Source: Myxacorys californica WJT36-NPBG1 (lineage in GTDB: Bacteria > Cyanobacteriota > Cyanobacteriia > Leptolyngbyales > Leptolyngbyaceae). From it: DNA of 64,000 nucleotides. Positions within the stretch are counted from its first letter, which is position 1, and the number at the start of each line of letters is the position of its first letter. The DNA lies in NCBI GenBank assembly GCA_019359315.1, contig JAHHHO010000014.1, forward strand, positions 1 through 64,000. The letters are read 5' to 3'. The notes under the pieces were generated by a model, which made no database searches, was not told where the DNA came from, and saw nothing but the letters and a program-made list of their open reading frames with translations. Shown in pieces: positions 54,508 to 59,981 of this stretch. Made by a program: the position numbers and the translations under genes.

Positions 54508-54533
54508 AAAGGGTAGTGACTGCACTACCCTTT
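54508..54533 (-). terminator. Terminator of the acidic-protein gene
   Basis: AAAGGGTAGTG pairs with CACTACCCTTT around a 4-base loop; on the minus strand CTTTCTTCT follows. It starts 12 bases after the stop of the 202-residue gene. Confidence 0.7.
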
Positions 54534-54544
54534 TTAAGATTGAA

Positions 54545-55153
54545 TTACTTTTTTTCAGCACTCTCAATGTCGATTGCATAACGAGCGATCGCTAGGGTAA
54601 TTCGTGCCTTCTCGGTTTCAGAAAGGTCTTCCCACGCCGCCGAACGCATATTGTTTGCTGGATCCTCGCCTCGCATTGAGTAAGCAAAAGGACGCGCCAG
54701 AACTTGCAAATCATCTTCTGCCCACCCAGGCAGCACGTCCTGCACACACTGCACTAACTGATCGGCGAGCGCGATGGAGGTCTGCGCCACTTGCTGAGCT
54801 TGCTGTGCGATGGCATTTAATAAATCCTGAGGAACATTGGCAAACTTGTGTGATAGCGAAGTTTGCAGAGTTGTTACCGAGAACAACTGATCGATATGGT
54901 TGAACAGAGACTGCGATCGCTCGGCGACGTCTTGATCCGATAGCTCCAAAGTAAGCGCTTGCTCTAAATCATTGAAGAATGATTCTGACGCTGGATCGGC
55001 AGGATTCCAGGGATAAGGAAGTTTGCTCTTTGGCTGATCTAGTACCTCAAACTCATCTCCGTTCCACGTCACGCCTTCTGCTTTGAGCAGCGCATCGAGA
55101 AGATCTTGCTCCACATTAATTGAGCGATTAGAACGACTTGCTTCCTTACTCAT
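54545..55153 (-). CDS. Acidic conserved hypothetical protein, third gene of the PP2C/CHAT cluster
   Basis: 202 residues, acidic, helical, with no signal or membrane segment. Recognisable stretches are LLDALLKAEGVTWNGDEFEV, YPWNPADPASESFFNDLEQA, LLNAIAQQAQQVAQTSIALA, GWAEDDLQVLARPFAYSMRG and AAWEDLSETEKARITLAIAR. I know no function. It is the last gene on the minus strand after the PP2C and CHAT-FHA genes (139 bases from the latter) and ends at a clear terminator, so it may be their partner. Confidence 0.75.
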   Translation of the reverse strand: MSKEASRSNRSINVEQDLLDALLKAEGVTWNGDEFEVLDQPKSKLPYPWNPADPASESFFNDLEQALTLELSDQDVAERSQSLFNHIDQLFSVTTLQTSLSHKFANVPQDLLNAIAQQAQQVAQTSIALADQLVQCVQDVLPGWAEDDLQVLARPFAYSMRGEDPANNMRSAAWEDLSETEKARITLAIARYAIDIESAEKK

Positions 55154-55292
55154 AGCTGATGAATCCCGCGTCCACGAATTAAATTAGGTTTGCTTTCTAG
55201 AGCTACAGACTGCCCAACCTCGATTCCGTAACTGATCCTACAATTTCCGTTAAATCACGCAATGATGGGACAGTTTCTGCAACGTCCTCCTC

Positions 55293-56945
55293 TCAGATCG
55301 CCTCTGACAGCATAACTGAAAATTCTAAGACAGAATTCTGAGAACCCCCGAATTTTAGTTGCGCTCCGGGCTGCAACGACACCTCCTGATGGTGGACTTT
55401 CTGCCAGTCGCCGGCAACCGTGACCCACGTTCCGTACCGAGAAAAATCTCGCAGAAAATAGGTAGGTTGATGAGCGCCTTCTGCCACGCTGCGATAGAAA
55501 ATTTCTGCATGTTTGCGCGAGACGCCTGGTTCGCTTGAAAGAACAACGTCGTTTTCAGCACTCATGCCGACTCGCATCAAGCCACCTCGAATCTGCCATA
55601 CTCTGGAAGTTTCCAGCGATCGCAGGGCGGCGATCGGCGTGGGTTGCCCAAGCTGACTAGGAGTGCGCGGAATTTGAGTTAAGCTTTCATCCGATGGCTT
55701 GATCAATTCCCCGTCAAACTCAGGGTGCATGTAGAGGACAGGCAATGTCCAGGCTTGATGATTAAACCGAAACAAGGTCAGTAAATGTTGCCGCGCCACG
55801 GCGACTGCTTGATCGATCGGCATTCGCTGAGCCAAGGCTTGAGCGAGAACTTCGATAAAGCTCAACGCTTCTTCATCCGTAATCGAATCGCGCATCGCTA
55901 AAACAGCCGGAACCCCGTGATGCAGCAACACTTCTGCCAAACTACTCCGAGGAATCACCTGATAGCCTTGCTGATCGGGTTGTGCGCCCCAACAGGCATT
56001 AAACACGGCTAATTTGACTTGACAGCGCGTGAGGACCTGCGCTAGTTCCGTTCCATTCATCGGCATGTCAGGACGCAAGAACAGCATCCCGCCATCTGGT
56101 GCGGGGACTCCGTGCCCTGCATAAAACAGGACGTTGTACCGCTTGGCTTCTAATACTTCAATCAATTCTGCGGGCGTCGGTTGTAATAGGGTATCGACCC
56201 GACAGGGTGCCATCCGCCGTCCATCCCCACCCTTTGGATTTAAGATCCGAGTCAGCGCGATCGCTTCTTGCTCTAGCCGCAACCGGTTTAGATCAGCCTT
56301 CTGAATTCCTTCTAGCGCACTAGAATTAGGCTGCGCTCCCGGAGCCGCGTCTTGGCCCAACACCAGCAGAATATTCAAGCTTTGCTCAGAGCGCAAGGCA
56401 GGCAGCGCATCTACGTCACTGGTCGTGCGACTGAAGAGAAGCTGCTGGCTCAGGGACACCGCTTGCTTGCCCGCATCGCTCTGCATAATCTCCCACGGAA
56501 TTTCAATCAAGGCGGGATCGCGGACATCGATCCGGATTCGCAGGGGTTTACCTTGCCCAATCGCGATTCCCTGGCTTTGATCGAGGCTACTCTGAATCGG
56601 CCCATCAAATAGCCAATGCCATAGCCCAACTCCTAGCGTCTGCATCAACCGCCCGCCCCGAGAAACGGGCTGTCCTAGAGGGGATTCAATTAGAACGGGG
56701 GGACGGGCTTGCGACACGTGAGGCACATCCGGCAAGCCCCGCGCCGAAAATAGCTCTTGCCATGCCCACCAAAGCTGTGCCAGTTCATCTGACCAGATCG
56801 AGTCGTGCAGCACATATCCTGCTCGATAGGGCGCTTGGATAACATGAATGGCAAAGTGCGGCGCTTGGGTTGCCCGCAATCGTCCGATCGCTAAACTTAA
56901 GCAGGGAATGTCCAACACAGCCATTAATTCACTACAAATACTCAA
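55293..56945 (-). CDS. CHAT-domain protein with C-terminal FHA domain
   Basis: 550 residues. Residues 130-405 form a CHAT (caspase-like) domain with catalytic His278 in FYAGHGVPAPDGG and Cys318 in VFNACWGAQ. Residues 450-545 form an FHA domain that reads phospho-threonine: MRVGMSAENDVVL, SRKHAEI (Ser476, Arg477, His479) and FSRYGTWV, where the usual Asn before GT is Tyr. No signal or membrane segment. It follows a PP2C phosphatase gene by 76 bases on the same strand, suggesting a phosphorylation-controlled protease. Substrate unknown. Confidence 0.9.
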   Translation of the reverse strand: MSICSELMAVLDIPCLSLAIGRLRATQAPHFAIHVIQAPYRAGYVLHDSIWSDELAQLWWAWQELFSARGLPDVPHVSQARPPVLIESPLGQPVSRGGRLMQTLGVGLWHWLFDGPIQSSLDQSQGIAIGQGKPLRIRIDVRDPALIEIPWEIMQSDAGKQAVSLSQQLLFSRTTSDVDALPALRSEQSLNILLVLGQDAAPGAQPNSSALEGIQKADLNRLRLEQEAIALTRILNPKGGDGRRMAPCRVDTLLQPTPAELIEVLEAKRYNVLFYAGHGVPAPDGGMLFLRPDMPMNGTELAQVLTRCQVKLAVFNACWGAQPDQQGYQVIPRSSLAEVLLHHGVPAVLAMRDSITDEEALSFIEVLAQALAQRMPIDQAVAVARQHLLTLFRFNHQAWTLPVLYMHPEFDGELIKPSDESLTQIPRTPSQLGQPTPIAALRSLETSRVWQIRGGLMRVGMSAENDVVLSSEPGVSRKHAEIFYRSVAEGAHQPTYFLRDFSRYGTWVTVAGDWQKVHHQEVSLQPGAQLKFGGSQNSVLEFSVMLSEAI

Positions 56946-57021
56946 ACATGATGCTTCCCAAACTCAATCTTAAAGGCTAGACCTGTTAGAAACGAACTCT
57001 TCGTTCGGTTTCTGTCATTCG

Positions 57022-59346
57022 TTAGCGATTTGGCTGAGGAGATTGCCGTGGCGTATCCGTGGGCGAAGGAGTTGAACTCGTTGTTGAACTCGCTGGACTA
57101 GAGGTTGTAGTTGGACTCGGAGTTAGGCTTGGAGTCAGGCTTGGAGAACCAGGAGTACACGCTCCTAACTGATTGGGCTGGAGGCTAAGGTCTTGGTTGA
57201 TAAAGGGCGCGATCGCGCTTTCCTGCTGCCATCCAGTTTGTCCTGGAATGGCAAATCCACTATCAGGCGGAACCGAACACACTTTCAGCCCAACCCAAGT
57301 TTGGCCCTGGACGGTTCGCTGTCCTACCACCTGAAGAACACTGCCTGAAGGAATTTGTCCCACAATCTGTTGAGGCGAGAGGTTGATCGGCTGTTCAGGA
57401 TTCCGTAAGAGCGGTAGTTTCGGGCTCGCCGCATCCCGTTCGAGTTGCAGCAGCGATCCCGTTGATAATTTGACGCTAGGAGACGGGGAGGGATCAGGGG
57501 CAACTGCTGTAGGTGTCGAGGGAGTGGCTAATGGGGGCGTTGGGATTACGGCTCGGCGTAGCTCTGGAATCAGCAGAAGTGCTAAGAGTCCGCCGAGTCC
57601 GAGCAATCCGAGAAAGGTAAAGATTGGGGCAAGCCACCGCCCCGATCTAGACGCGTTAGACGGCACAACAATTTGTGTTTTTAGACGGGACGGATTGCTG
57701 GTCGCCTTGCTAGGAGGCGTCTGGGGAGGAACTGCCGATTGAGCCGTAGATAAGATAGGAGCATCGCCACGTTCTTGGCTAACTTGAAACCGCATGAGAG
57801 CGATCGTCACGTTATCGTGGCCATTTCGAGTGTTGGCAATCTCGACTAATCGGCGGGCAGCAGTTCCTAAATCTGCTTTGCCATCTAAAAGCGGCGCAAT
57901 TTCGGTCTGCCAGCATTCCTCGATGCGATCGTTGTCGCTCAACCCATCGGAACACAGCAGAAACACACAGTCTTCGTCTATGACAAATCGCTGCACAGTG
58001 GGATGAAGATACGTTGAACTACCCATTCCCAACGCTTGCACTAGAGAGCCAGAGGCGGGATGCTGGAGCGCTTCACGGTACAGGGTATAGCCAAGCCGCA
58101 CTTCCCGCGAGGCTACGTCATCATCAAGCGTGACTTGATAGCACTCGGTGCGAGTGATGCGGTAGGCGCGGCTATCTCCCACATGGGCAAGGTAGAGTTG
58201 ATGGGCAGAGGCTAAACCCATGACCACGGTTGTCCCCATGCGCTGGCGCTCTTGCCGTCGTTCTAAGTCATTTTGCTGACTGATGCTGTTGTTGGCAGCA
58301 CAGACCGCTTCATCTAACATATGGGATACGCTGGCGGCGTCCATAGAATGGGAAGCATTTTTCTGGACTTCTTCAGCGATCGTTGCGATCGCGATTCCTG
58401 ACGCAACTTCTCCGCCTTCATGTCCGCCAATTCCGTCACACACAATTACTAAAGGGAACGGCGCGGCCTCGGTTGACGTGACAAAATTCGTGCCTTGGGG
58501 GGGATAGCAAGCGTCTTCGTTGGTCTGGCGGCTTGGCCCTTGATCGGTATCGGTGGCGATGTGAACTTGGCGATGCTGCCCGGTTGCATGGGTTGCCAAC
58601 GCTTGATCGAGAATGGCAACCAAATGTTCTGGGGCTGTGATCTGCTCGTCAATCAAGTTTCGGCAGAGGTCGCTCAGAAACTCTGCGATCGCACTGTTAG
58701 ATCGGGGTTGCCACTCTGCCCAGAGGTGTCCCAACTGAACGAGCGTAGGCGGCTGGCGATCATGGGCGAGTTCTAGCGATCGCACTAACGCACCATCAAC
58801 TCGCAGCAATTCTGGAACAAGTAGGGTCGAGGCAACCTTCTCTGAACTCATCGGTTGCCAAAGCTGAGCAATTTGCCACAGCCAATTCAATTGACGCAAC
58901 GCAGAACTGGATGGCCATTGACTAGCGAGATCTGGCATCAGCATTCCGCTCAAGTCTTGACCTTGGCTAGACCTAGCTCCGCTTGAATAGATGGGGGCTT
59001 GCTCTAAAAGCAAAACAGCCATGTCTTCTGACTCAACAAAGCCGTAAATTTGAGGAATATGAATACGGTAAGGGAAAAGCCGCAAATAAGCTTCGAGACT
59101 CGGCGTAATATCTGTCGGTGCCTCTGGGATCAAACCAGGCGTTGTGTCTAGCAGAATTCTCTGACTTTTCAAAATATAGCGGTTGGCAACCCTATCGCCC
59201 GGACGAAGCGTTTCCAAACCAACACCTACGGCCCAGAGATATCGCTTTGGCAGAGGCGTTTGGCAGTTTGAGCAGATCTGACTGCTCTCTGCATTGGGCA
59301 TCTGACACAAGTAGTTAGGACACTGAATAGGTGAATCGTTTTGCAT
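57022..59346 (-). CDS. PP2C-type Ser/Thr phosphatase with zinc ribbon, kinase-like region and membrane anchor
   Basis: 774 residues. A zinc ribbon (Cys9, Cys14, Cys25, Cys28) starts the protein. Residues 45-255 look like a degenerate protein-kinase fold (RVANRYILKSQRILLD, DMAVLLLEQAPIYSS) without catalytic Lys-Asp motifs. PP2C spans about 262-525: DTDQGPSRQTNEDA, VIVCDGIGGHEGGE, LAHVGDSRAYRI, LLCSDGLSDN and NGHDNVTIAL, with all metal Asp residues. A membrane helix (WLAPIFTFLGLLGLGGLLAL) near 580 is followed by a small beta domain and a Ser/Thr/Pro-rich tail. First gene of a cluster with CHAT-FHA. Confidence 0.9.
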   Translation of the reverse strand: MQNDSPIQCPNYLCQMPNAESSQICSNCQTPLPKRYLWAVGVGLETLRPGDRVANRYILKSQRILLDTTPGLIPEAPTDITPSLEAYLRLFPYRIHIPQIYGFVESEDMAVLLLEQAPIYSSGARSSQGQDLSGMLMPDLASQWPSSSALRQLNWLWQIAQLWQPMSSEKVASTLLVPELLRVDGALVRSLELAHDRQPPTLVQLGHLWAEWQPRSNSAIAEFLSDLCRNLIDEQITAPEHLVAILDQALATHATGQHRQVHIATDTDQGPSRQTNEDACYPPQGTNFVTSTEAAPFPLVIVCDGIGGHEGGEVASGIAIATIAEEVQKNASHSMDAASVSHMLDEAVCAANNSISQQNDLERRQERQRMGTTVVMGLASAHQLYLAHVGDSRAYRITRTECYQVTLDDDVASREVRLGYTLYREALQHPASGSLVQALGMGSSTYLHPTVQRFVIDEDCVFLLCSDGLSDNDRIEECWQTEIAPLLDGKADLGTAARRLVEIANTRNGHDNVTIALMRFQVSQERGDAPILSTAQSAVPPQTPPSKATSNPSRLKTQIVVPSNASRSGRWLAPIFTFLGLLGLGGLLALLLIPELRRAVIPTPPLATPSTPTAVAPDPSPSPSVKLSTGSLLQLERDAASPKLPLLRNPEQPINLSPQQIVGQIPSGSVLQVVGQRTVQGQTWVGLKVCSVPPDSGFAIPGQTGWQQESAIAPFINQDLSLQPNQLGACTPGSPSLTPSLTPSPTTTSSPASSTTSSTPSPTDTPRQSPQPNR

Positions 59347-59675: not shown

Positions 59676-59981
59676 ATGGATATGGCAGAAAATGAGTCTA
59701 AAGTTTCATCCTCTCAGGCTCAGTCGCCATTGTCAGAACGGGAACTCCAGGTCATTGAACTCGTGGCGTCGGGGTTCACGAATCTAGAGATTGCTGAAAA
59801 GTTGGAAATTAGCAAGCGAACGGTAGACAACCATATCAGCAATATCCTGACCAAAACGGGAACCGATAACCGTGTGGCGTTAGTACGCTGGGCGCTGCAA
59901 TGGGGCAAAGTGTGTATTGATGAAGTGAACTGCTGCACCCTGCCGCCATACAAGGCTAATGAGGACAGAGCCTCGTCTTAG
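59676..59981 (+). CDS. pedR: Small LuxR-type regulator, PedR-like
   Basis: A 101-residue stand-alone LuxR/GerE helix-turn-helix protein: SPLSERELQVIELVASGFTN, LEIAEKLEISKRTVDNHISN then ILTKTGTDNRVALVRWA. There is no receiver domain. The C-terminus has Cys80, Cys86 and Cys87 (KVCIDEVNCCTLPP). Small regulators of this layout in cyanobacteria include PedR, which senses photosynthetic electron flow through a cysteine and thioredoxin. I assign by length, HTH type and cysteine position. Divergent from the PP2C gene. Confidence 0.75.
   Translation: MDMAENESKVSSSQAQSPLSERELQVIELVASGFTNLEIAEKLEISKRTVDNHISNILTKTGTDNRVALVRWALQWGKVCIDEVNCCTLPPYKANEDRASS

Follow-up and report, generated by a model that had tools for sequence, protein, structure and literature searches.

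Gene content of the locus

The window analysed here is a 64,000-nucleotide stretch of the Myxacorys californica WJT36-NPBG1 genome (contig JAHHHO010000014.1). Its minus strand carries three consecutive genes, first PP2C, then CHAT-FHA and last X3, with intergenic gaps of 76 bp and 139 bp.

57022..59346, minus strand: PP2C-type Ser/Thr phosphatase ORF, 774 aa (ORF list and Pfam)
55293..56945, minus strand: CHAT-FHA ORF, 550 aa counted from TTG (ORF list and Pfam)
54545..55153, minus strand: X3 ORF, an acidic helical protein of 202 aa without known family (ORF list; Pfam, AlphaFold and pI)
54508..54533, minus strand: terminator-like hairpin with an 11-bp stem just past the X3 stop (its position fits; this class of site is not enriched over shuffles)

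A sequence-only reading had described three same-strand genes that end at one terminator, and the ORFs and a terminator-like hairpin do lie where it placed them, with the PP2C, CHAT and FHA domains all recognised by Pfam. CHAT-FHA more probably begins at the ATG at 56924 (codon 8) than at the TTG at 56945, for in a relative a stop codon lies immediately before this position. In-frame TGA codons had been reported for several CHAT-FHA genes and suggested recoding; this was set aside, as those checked lie upstream of the true start or outside the re-aligned match.

The surrounding genes, RadA, RpaB, HisS, PsaL and PedR, have housekeeping or regulatory functions. PedR, the photosynthetic electron transport-dependent regulator, lies at 59676-59981 and is divergent from PP2C, and the PedR and HisS neighbours recur in about 10 of the genomes read. 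The nearest named genome, that of Myxacorys almedinensis, has the same gene neighbourhood and is 90% identical over CHAT-FHA, which points to a filamentous, Leptolyngbya-like cyanobacterium as the source of the window.

A CHAT domain related to HetF and Craspase

The N-terminal part of CHAT-FHA is a peptidase domain.

55746..56627, minus strand: CHAT caspase-like peptidase domain, residues 107-400 (Pfam, 83.3 bits against a cut-off of 24)
56112..56114, minus strand: catalytic His278, invariant in 72 of 72 sequences
55992..55994, minus strand: catalytic Cys318, invariant in 72 of 72 sequences

With a domain score over the curated cut-off and a conserved His/Cys dyad, the protein belongs in the CHAT peptidase family of clan CD. 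The dyad had been predicted from the sequence, with non-conservation of the catalytic residues named as grounds for abandoning the prediction; both residues are the same in all 72 proteins aligned. Within the model developed below, which we hold at somewhat under an even chance, CHAT-FHA would be a cytosolic caspase-like cysteine protease and a relative of HetF, the protease activity being suggested by domain and dyad. Two further CHAT genes in the same genome (C120:1879-2436 and C38:18744-19250) are interrupted by in-frame stop codons, which gives them the appearance of decayed copies.

To our knowledge a partner is known for only a few CHAT proteases, namely Csx30 for Csx29 and PatU3 for HetF. 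By sequence, the closest characterised CHAT domain is that of HetF (NCBIfam NF045509), which functions in heterocyst development and cell division and, according to a review (PMC12288457), cleaves the regulator PatU3. CHAT-FHA is not HetF itself: it scores 147.9 bits against the HetF model, far under the cut-off of 1200 bits, the match covers the CHAT part only (residues 101-417, roughly 32-38% identity), and in the tree CHAT-FHA forms its own clade apart from HetF (support 98/94). HetF contains TPR repeats as well as a transmembrane segment but no FHA domain (PMC8406250), whereas CHAT-FHA lacks these parts, carries an FHA domain and is distributed differently among genomes. A full-length HetF-like protein is encoded elsewhere in the same genome (C76, 811 bits).

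A fold search with the CHAT-FHA model returned Csx29/TPR-CHAT and separase as the best matches (Csx29, E 2.6e-11). Csx29 cleaves Csx30, a product of its own locus: recognition is through a folded domain at the C-terminus of Csx30, and the cut falls in a loop (PMC10028731). The likeness to Craspase lies both in the fold and in a CHAT protease encoded beside a dedicated protein partner; unlike Craspase, the module in the window has no CRISPR effector, TPR or RNA trigger, and no solved chain with similarity to X3 was detected. Separase and securin share the clan-CD fold, and solved complexes of phosphorylated substrates are among the CHAT-FHA matches, but that system is eukaryotic, and none of the solved partners is detectably related to X3. 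A further match of the CHAT-FHA model is DdvA (PDB 8rot), a protein described as an anti-sigma factor of the transmembrane kind, which would be another possible link between CHAT-like folds and sigma-factor control.

X3 as a probable dedicated partner

The third protein had been called acidic and of unassigned function, and this description holds: X3 has a pI of 4.33 (family median 4.34), and no family in Pfam or NCBIfam contains it, single members of the X3 family giving scattered, weak Pfam matches. A fold search of the PDB gave no match below E 0.4, with high RMSD, and the only sequence match to a solved chain, a designed helical bundle, was discarded as probably compositional. AlphaFold predicts a variable N-terminal helix, a conserved block and then a confident helical core with pLDDT >90 over much of residues 100-200, in which D148, R154, R161 and W174 are invariant.

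55001..55015, minus strand: X3 motif YPWNP, residues 47-51, the conserved block ahead of the helical core (Y47 invariant, W49 96%)

X3 was also considered as a phosphothreonine ligand and rejected, there being no conserved Thr in the protein.

It is possible that X3 is not cut at all and serves instead as a securin-like inhibitory or chaperone subunit that keeps the CHAT protease inactive, the true substrate being encoded elsewhere. The well-folded and strongly conserved helical core suits a stable binding partner, X3 is highly acidic, and separase-securin is among the closest fold matches. A folded domain would, however, suit a substrate as well, as Csx30 illustrates (PMC10028731), and X3 outlives the loss of CHAT-FHA in one genome (G061, below), which would be odd for a pure inhibitor; we regard the securin-like role as somewhat unlikely. 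Cleavage of X3 by CHAT-FHA, as opposed to its being a regulatory subunit, is itself a guess by analogy with HetF-PatU3 and Csx29-Csx30.

Threonine motifs, the FHA domain and the phosphatase

Beyond the CHAT domain of CHAT-FHA lie a short disordered linker and an FHA domain.

55668..55679, minus strand: linker motif T423-Q-I-P426, candidate phosphothreonine site (disordered segment 421-428 in AlphaFold, and conservation)
55347..55574, minus strand: FHA domain, residues 458-533, with the phosphothreonine-contact Arg replaced by Met461 (Pfam 42.5 bits, over cut-off; FHA structures matched)

The roles of Arg, Ser and Asn in the FHA phosphopeptide site are taken from PMC6509490. In the FHA domain of the window S476 is kept, Arg is replaced by Met461 and Asn by Tyr504, and in the alignment of 72 relatives the canonical Arg/Ser/Asn set for phosphothreonine binding is thus incomplete in this protein. 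The contact Arg is kept in 53 of the 72 CHAT-FHA proteins and is Met in all 12 members of the window's clade, while 7 others have Ile, Val or Phe there. Only 3 of 72 retain the usual Asn, and 68 have Tyr or Phe. The FHA domain is structurally sound with a phosphopeptide site that is non-standard in its aligned residues, and it is unlikely to be an ordinary phosphothreonine reader in this species. Of the earlier proposal that the FHA domain reads phosphothreonine, the domain and its fold therefore stand, but the reader role is weakened by Met at the Arg position in the window's clade and Tyr or Phe at the Asn position family-wide.

The motif T-x-[ILMF]-P is almost the sole conserved feature of the CHAT/FHA linker, which AlphaFold leaves disordered. 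Its Thr is found in 70 of 72 proteins (the other two are gapped, and Ser never occurs) and its Pro in all 72. Since T423 is also retained in 19 of 19 CHAT-FHA proteins with an Arg-less FHA domain, reading by its own FHA domain cannot be its sole role. There is a resemblance here to GarA and OdhI, inhibitors of metabolic enzymes in which an FHA domain adjoins a flexible, disordered tail with a conserved Thr that is phosphorylated. Those proteins carry the motif ETTS, whereas CHAT-FHA has T-x-[ILMF]-P and a catalytic CHAT domain, and in the window's clade its FHA domain is without the phosphothreonine Arg.

The phosphatase encoded upstream consists of a zinc ribbon, a cyanobacterial N-terminal region, the PP2C domain, a transmembrane helix and a tail rich in Pro, Ser and Thr.

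59263..59322, minus strand: zinc-ribbon cysteines, residues 9-28 (cysteine columns at least 90% conserved)
57793..58548, minus strand: PP2C catalytic domain, residues 267-518 (profile match; metal-binding motifs)
57661..57681, minus strand: juxtamembrane motif KTQIVVP (T557), candidate phosphothreonine site (motif enrichment in linkers)
57568..57624, minus strand: predicted transmembrane helix, residues 575-593 (hydropathy; single helix)

A regular-expression search recovered the metal-binding motifs in 45 of 48 relatives, the window included, which places the protein among the PP2C phosphatases. A membrane-anchored PP2C with a zinc ribbon had been proposed and is upheld by the Pfam PP2C match, the one predicted transmembrane helix and the cysteine columns. 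The 'kinase-like region' proposed for its N-terminus is not: hhalign against 15 Hanks kinases of the same genome gave a probability of 0.25%, and neither Pfam nor the PDB returned a kinase match to this region. The tail has an SH3-like look, but a whole-protein Pfam scan shows no such domain, and the likeness is not claimed. PRK14559, a cyanobacterial zinc-ribbon PP2C (NF011149), and Stp1 are the nearest known systems in that they share the zinc ribbon and PP2C domain; the window protein scores 265 bits against PRK14559, under the model cut-off of 374, and differs from both in having a membrane helix preceded by a conserved Thr motif.

A motif T-[QKE]-[ILV] occurs 7-23 residues ahead of the membrane helix in 35 of 47 PP2C linkers (shuffles: mean 7.3, maximum 16), and the Ser version in 4 of 47. 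The motifs in this juxtamembrane linker and in the CHAT-FHA linker are candidate phosphosites, as judged from conservation. The proposal that Thr phosphorylation controls the CHAT domain is accordingly plausible in one respect, because conserved Thr motifs occur in two flexible linkers, and weakened in the part of it that relied on the FHA domain as reader. A related motif in the FHA-PrsW protein described below (SFTQLFP) was not counted as a linear motif, its surroundings being equally conserved.

The Thr motif could alternatively be a proteolytic site rather than a phosphosite, which counts against the model preferred here. On such a reading the CHAT protease would cut its own linker and free the FHA domain, and would cut PP2C before the membrane helix and free the phosphatase; like motifs do lie in flexible linkers of both proteins, where a cut would release a domain. 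The occurrence of Thr, never Ser, in 70 ungapped linkers is nonetheless expected of an FHA ligand and not of a protease site, and we consider cleavage at these motifs quite improbable.

Conservation, linkage and co-occurrence

The three-gene arrangement is far beyond chance and recurs across many cyanobacterial families. Of 42 genomes in the window's order, 41 carry a CHAT-FHA orthologue, and the one that does not (G026) is also without X3. Among 73 CHAT-FHA loci read, X3 lies downstream on the same strand in 49, PP2C upstream in 47, both in 34 and neither in 11, and most gaps are <250 bp. In a set of 80 named loci, which partly overlaps these 73 and was counted only on contigs long enough, X3 comes immediately after CHAT-FHA in 62 of 75 loci, and PP2C is the gene before CHAT-FHA in 53 of 76. 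Widespread unlinking in related genomes, which the sequence-only reading had named as its refutation, is not seen at these frequencies. Some lineages keep PP2C with CHAT-FHA, X3 having moved away, while others keep CHAT-FHA with X3 and have a penicillin-binding protein in the PP2C position. In genus g18 (L086, L090, L091, L092, L093) the gene directly upstream of CHAT-FHA on the same strand, replacing PP2C, is of the PBP2 type, which hints at a cell-wall link; HetF reportedly binds FtsI.

A sample of 386 genomes from the phylum contains CHAT-FHA in 86 and X3 in 88; both are present in 85, CHAT-FHA alone in 1, X3 alone in 3 and neither in 297. The claim that the genes form a conserved functional unit, checked by gene order across cyanobacteria, is supported by this pairing and by the invariant catalytic His/Cys dyad. 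The corresponding Fisher p of 8e-81 ignores relatedness, and a lineage-by-lineage argument is better. Outside the window's own family, the separate sample of relatives includes seven families with X3, every one of which has CHAT-FHA, and the X3-less families tested are without it. After correction for PP2C, CHAT-FHA and X3 pair distances remain correlated (partial r 0.69), compared with 0.25 for CHAT-FHA and PP2C given X3. The sequence evidence for a CHAT-FHA/X3 partnership is strong.

The four exceptions to co-occurrence (G061, G169, G249 and G279) are all draft genomes. In G061 (L291, C16) CHAT-FHA is truly reduced to a 64-residue C-terminal FHA remnant between PP2C and X3, and PP2C, X3 and an FHA-PrsW gene beyond X3 look intact. 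X3 can therefore persist without CHAT-FHA, which counts against the preferred model, as do the 11 of 73 loci with neither neighbour and the presence of the PP2C family (122 genomes) also where the module is missing.

Related genomes inherit gene order, and it might be expected that linkage by common descent with weak selection would produce such clusters even if the three proteins do not act together, as the 11 CHAT-FHA loci with neither neighbour could suggest. However, CHAT-FHA and X3 are kept or lost together even where they are unlinked: family f21 and genus g50 have CHAT-FHA and X3 apart wherever present, with neither gene in related genomes, as in g50, where G253 has the pair, unlinked, and G107 and G131 have neither. 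Nor does HetF, taken as a control, track the pair, for G101, G142, G152, G157, G177, G189 and G348 have CHAT-FHA and X3 without HetF, and conversely G089, G097 and G181 have HetF with neither. Common descent alone is in our judgement very improbable. G107 (C1:1966961) and G131 (C1:1945656-1946984), which are without CHAT-FHA and X3, carry HetF-like ORFs of ~460 aa in which the ends of HetF are matched and the CHAT region seems to be missing.

One further neighbour recurs. Where X3 follows CHAT-FHA, the convergent gene in 24 of 49 loci codes for a PrsW-type intramembrane metalloprotease joined to an FHA domain (for example L092:1970-3385, with 25 genes like it); many genera show this convergence with X3. 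The canonical FHA site (Arg, Ser, Asn) is invariant in 27 of 27 of these proteins. Their distribution overlaps that of CHAT-FHA (66 of 86 genomes) but is looser; in G015 FHA-PrsW and X3 are still neighbours while CHAT-FHA lies elsewhere, and in the window genome the FHA-PrsW gene is on another contig (G000 C35, L180:1435-2784).

A programmed-death or phage-defence role was also raised in the earlier reading, and Craspase and other defence systems do employ CHAT proteases. Such a role is scarcely credible here given that PADLOC yielded no convincing defence model (the best matches, Cas6 at 0.0019 and SAVED_CHAT at E 0.026, are partial and weak), that the neighbours are housekeeping or regulatory, and that CHAT-FHA is spread over many families and near-universal in its order.

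A candidate phospho-regulated proteolytic switch

We tentatively favour, at a little less than an even chance, a conserved cyanobacterial proteolytic switch in which a protease of HetF/Craspase type acts with a dedicated client and is gated by Thr phosphorylation and PP2C, a model assembled from domain content and conservation. In it X3 would be the client of CHAT-FHA, either as a substrate or as an obligate regulatory subunit. A Hanks-type kinase, for which the 27 Hanks kinases over cut-off in the window genome are candidates, would phosphorylate T423 in the disordered CHAT/FHA linker; the membrane PP2C encoded upstream would reverse this, possibly in answer to an envelope signal, and the phosphorylation state would set the access of the protease to X3. 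The FHA domain would act as a docking arm that may read phosphothreonine in most lineages. In the window's clade, where the key Arg is lost, it probably docks without phosphate, and the reading of phosphothreonine may be left to other FHA proteins such as FHA-PrsW.

A further reading goes beyond this switch and seems to us unlikely as it stands. It would make of these genes a second, HetF-independent caspase-like pathway under Ser/Thr phospho-control, in which CHAT-FHA and PP2C share a Thr switch whose state is determined by a kinase and by this membrane phosphatase, CHAT-FHA cuts X3, and FHA-PrsW takes part in the circuit.

No published study of the CHAT-FHA/X3/PP2C cluster was found among 5.39 million open papers, and prior work in subscription journals is possible: no open paper joins a CHAT domain, an FHA domain and cyanobacteria, and of just two that mention PrsW, FHA and cyanobacteria neither concerns this module to judge by its title.

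What emerges is a CHAT protease and an unannotated family that are near-obligate companions across many cyanobacterial families, together with a candidate phosphosite and a clustered phosphatase. X3, family-less in Pfam and NCBIfam, thereby gains a first functional context, and the roles of CHAT proteins outside CRISPR and heterocysts become a defined test with one protease, one client and one Thr. If true, the HetF-independent pathway would link the state of the envelope to regulated proteolysis in these cyanobacteria.
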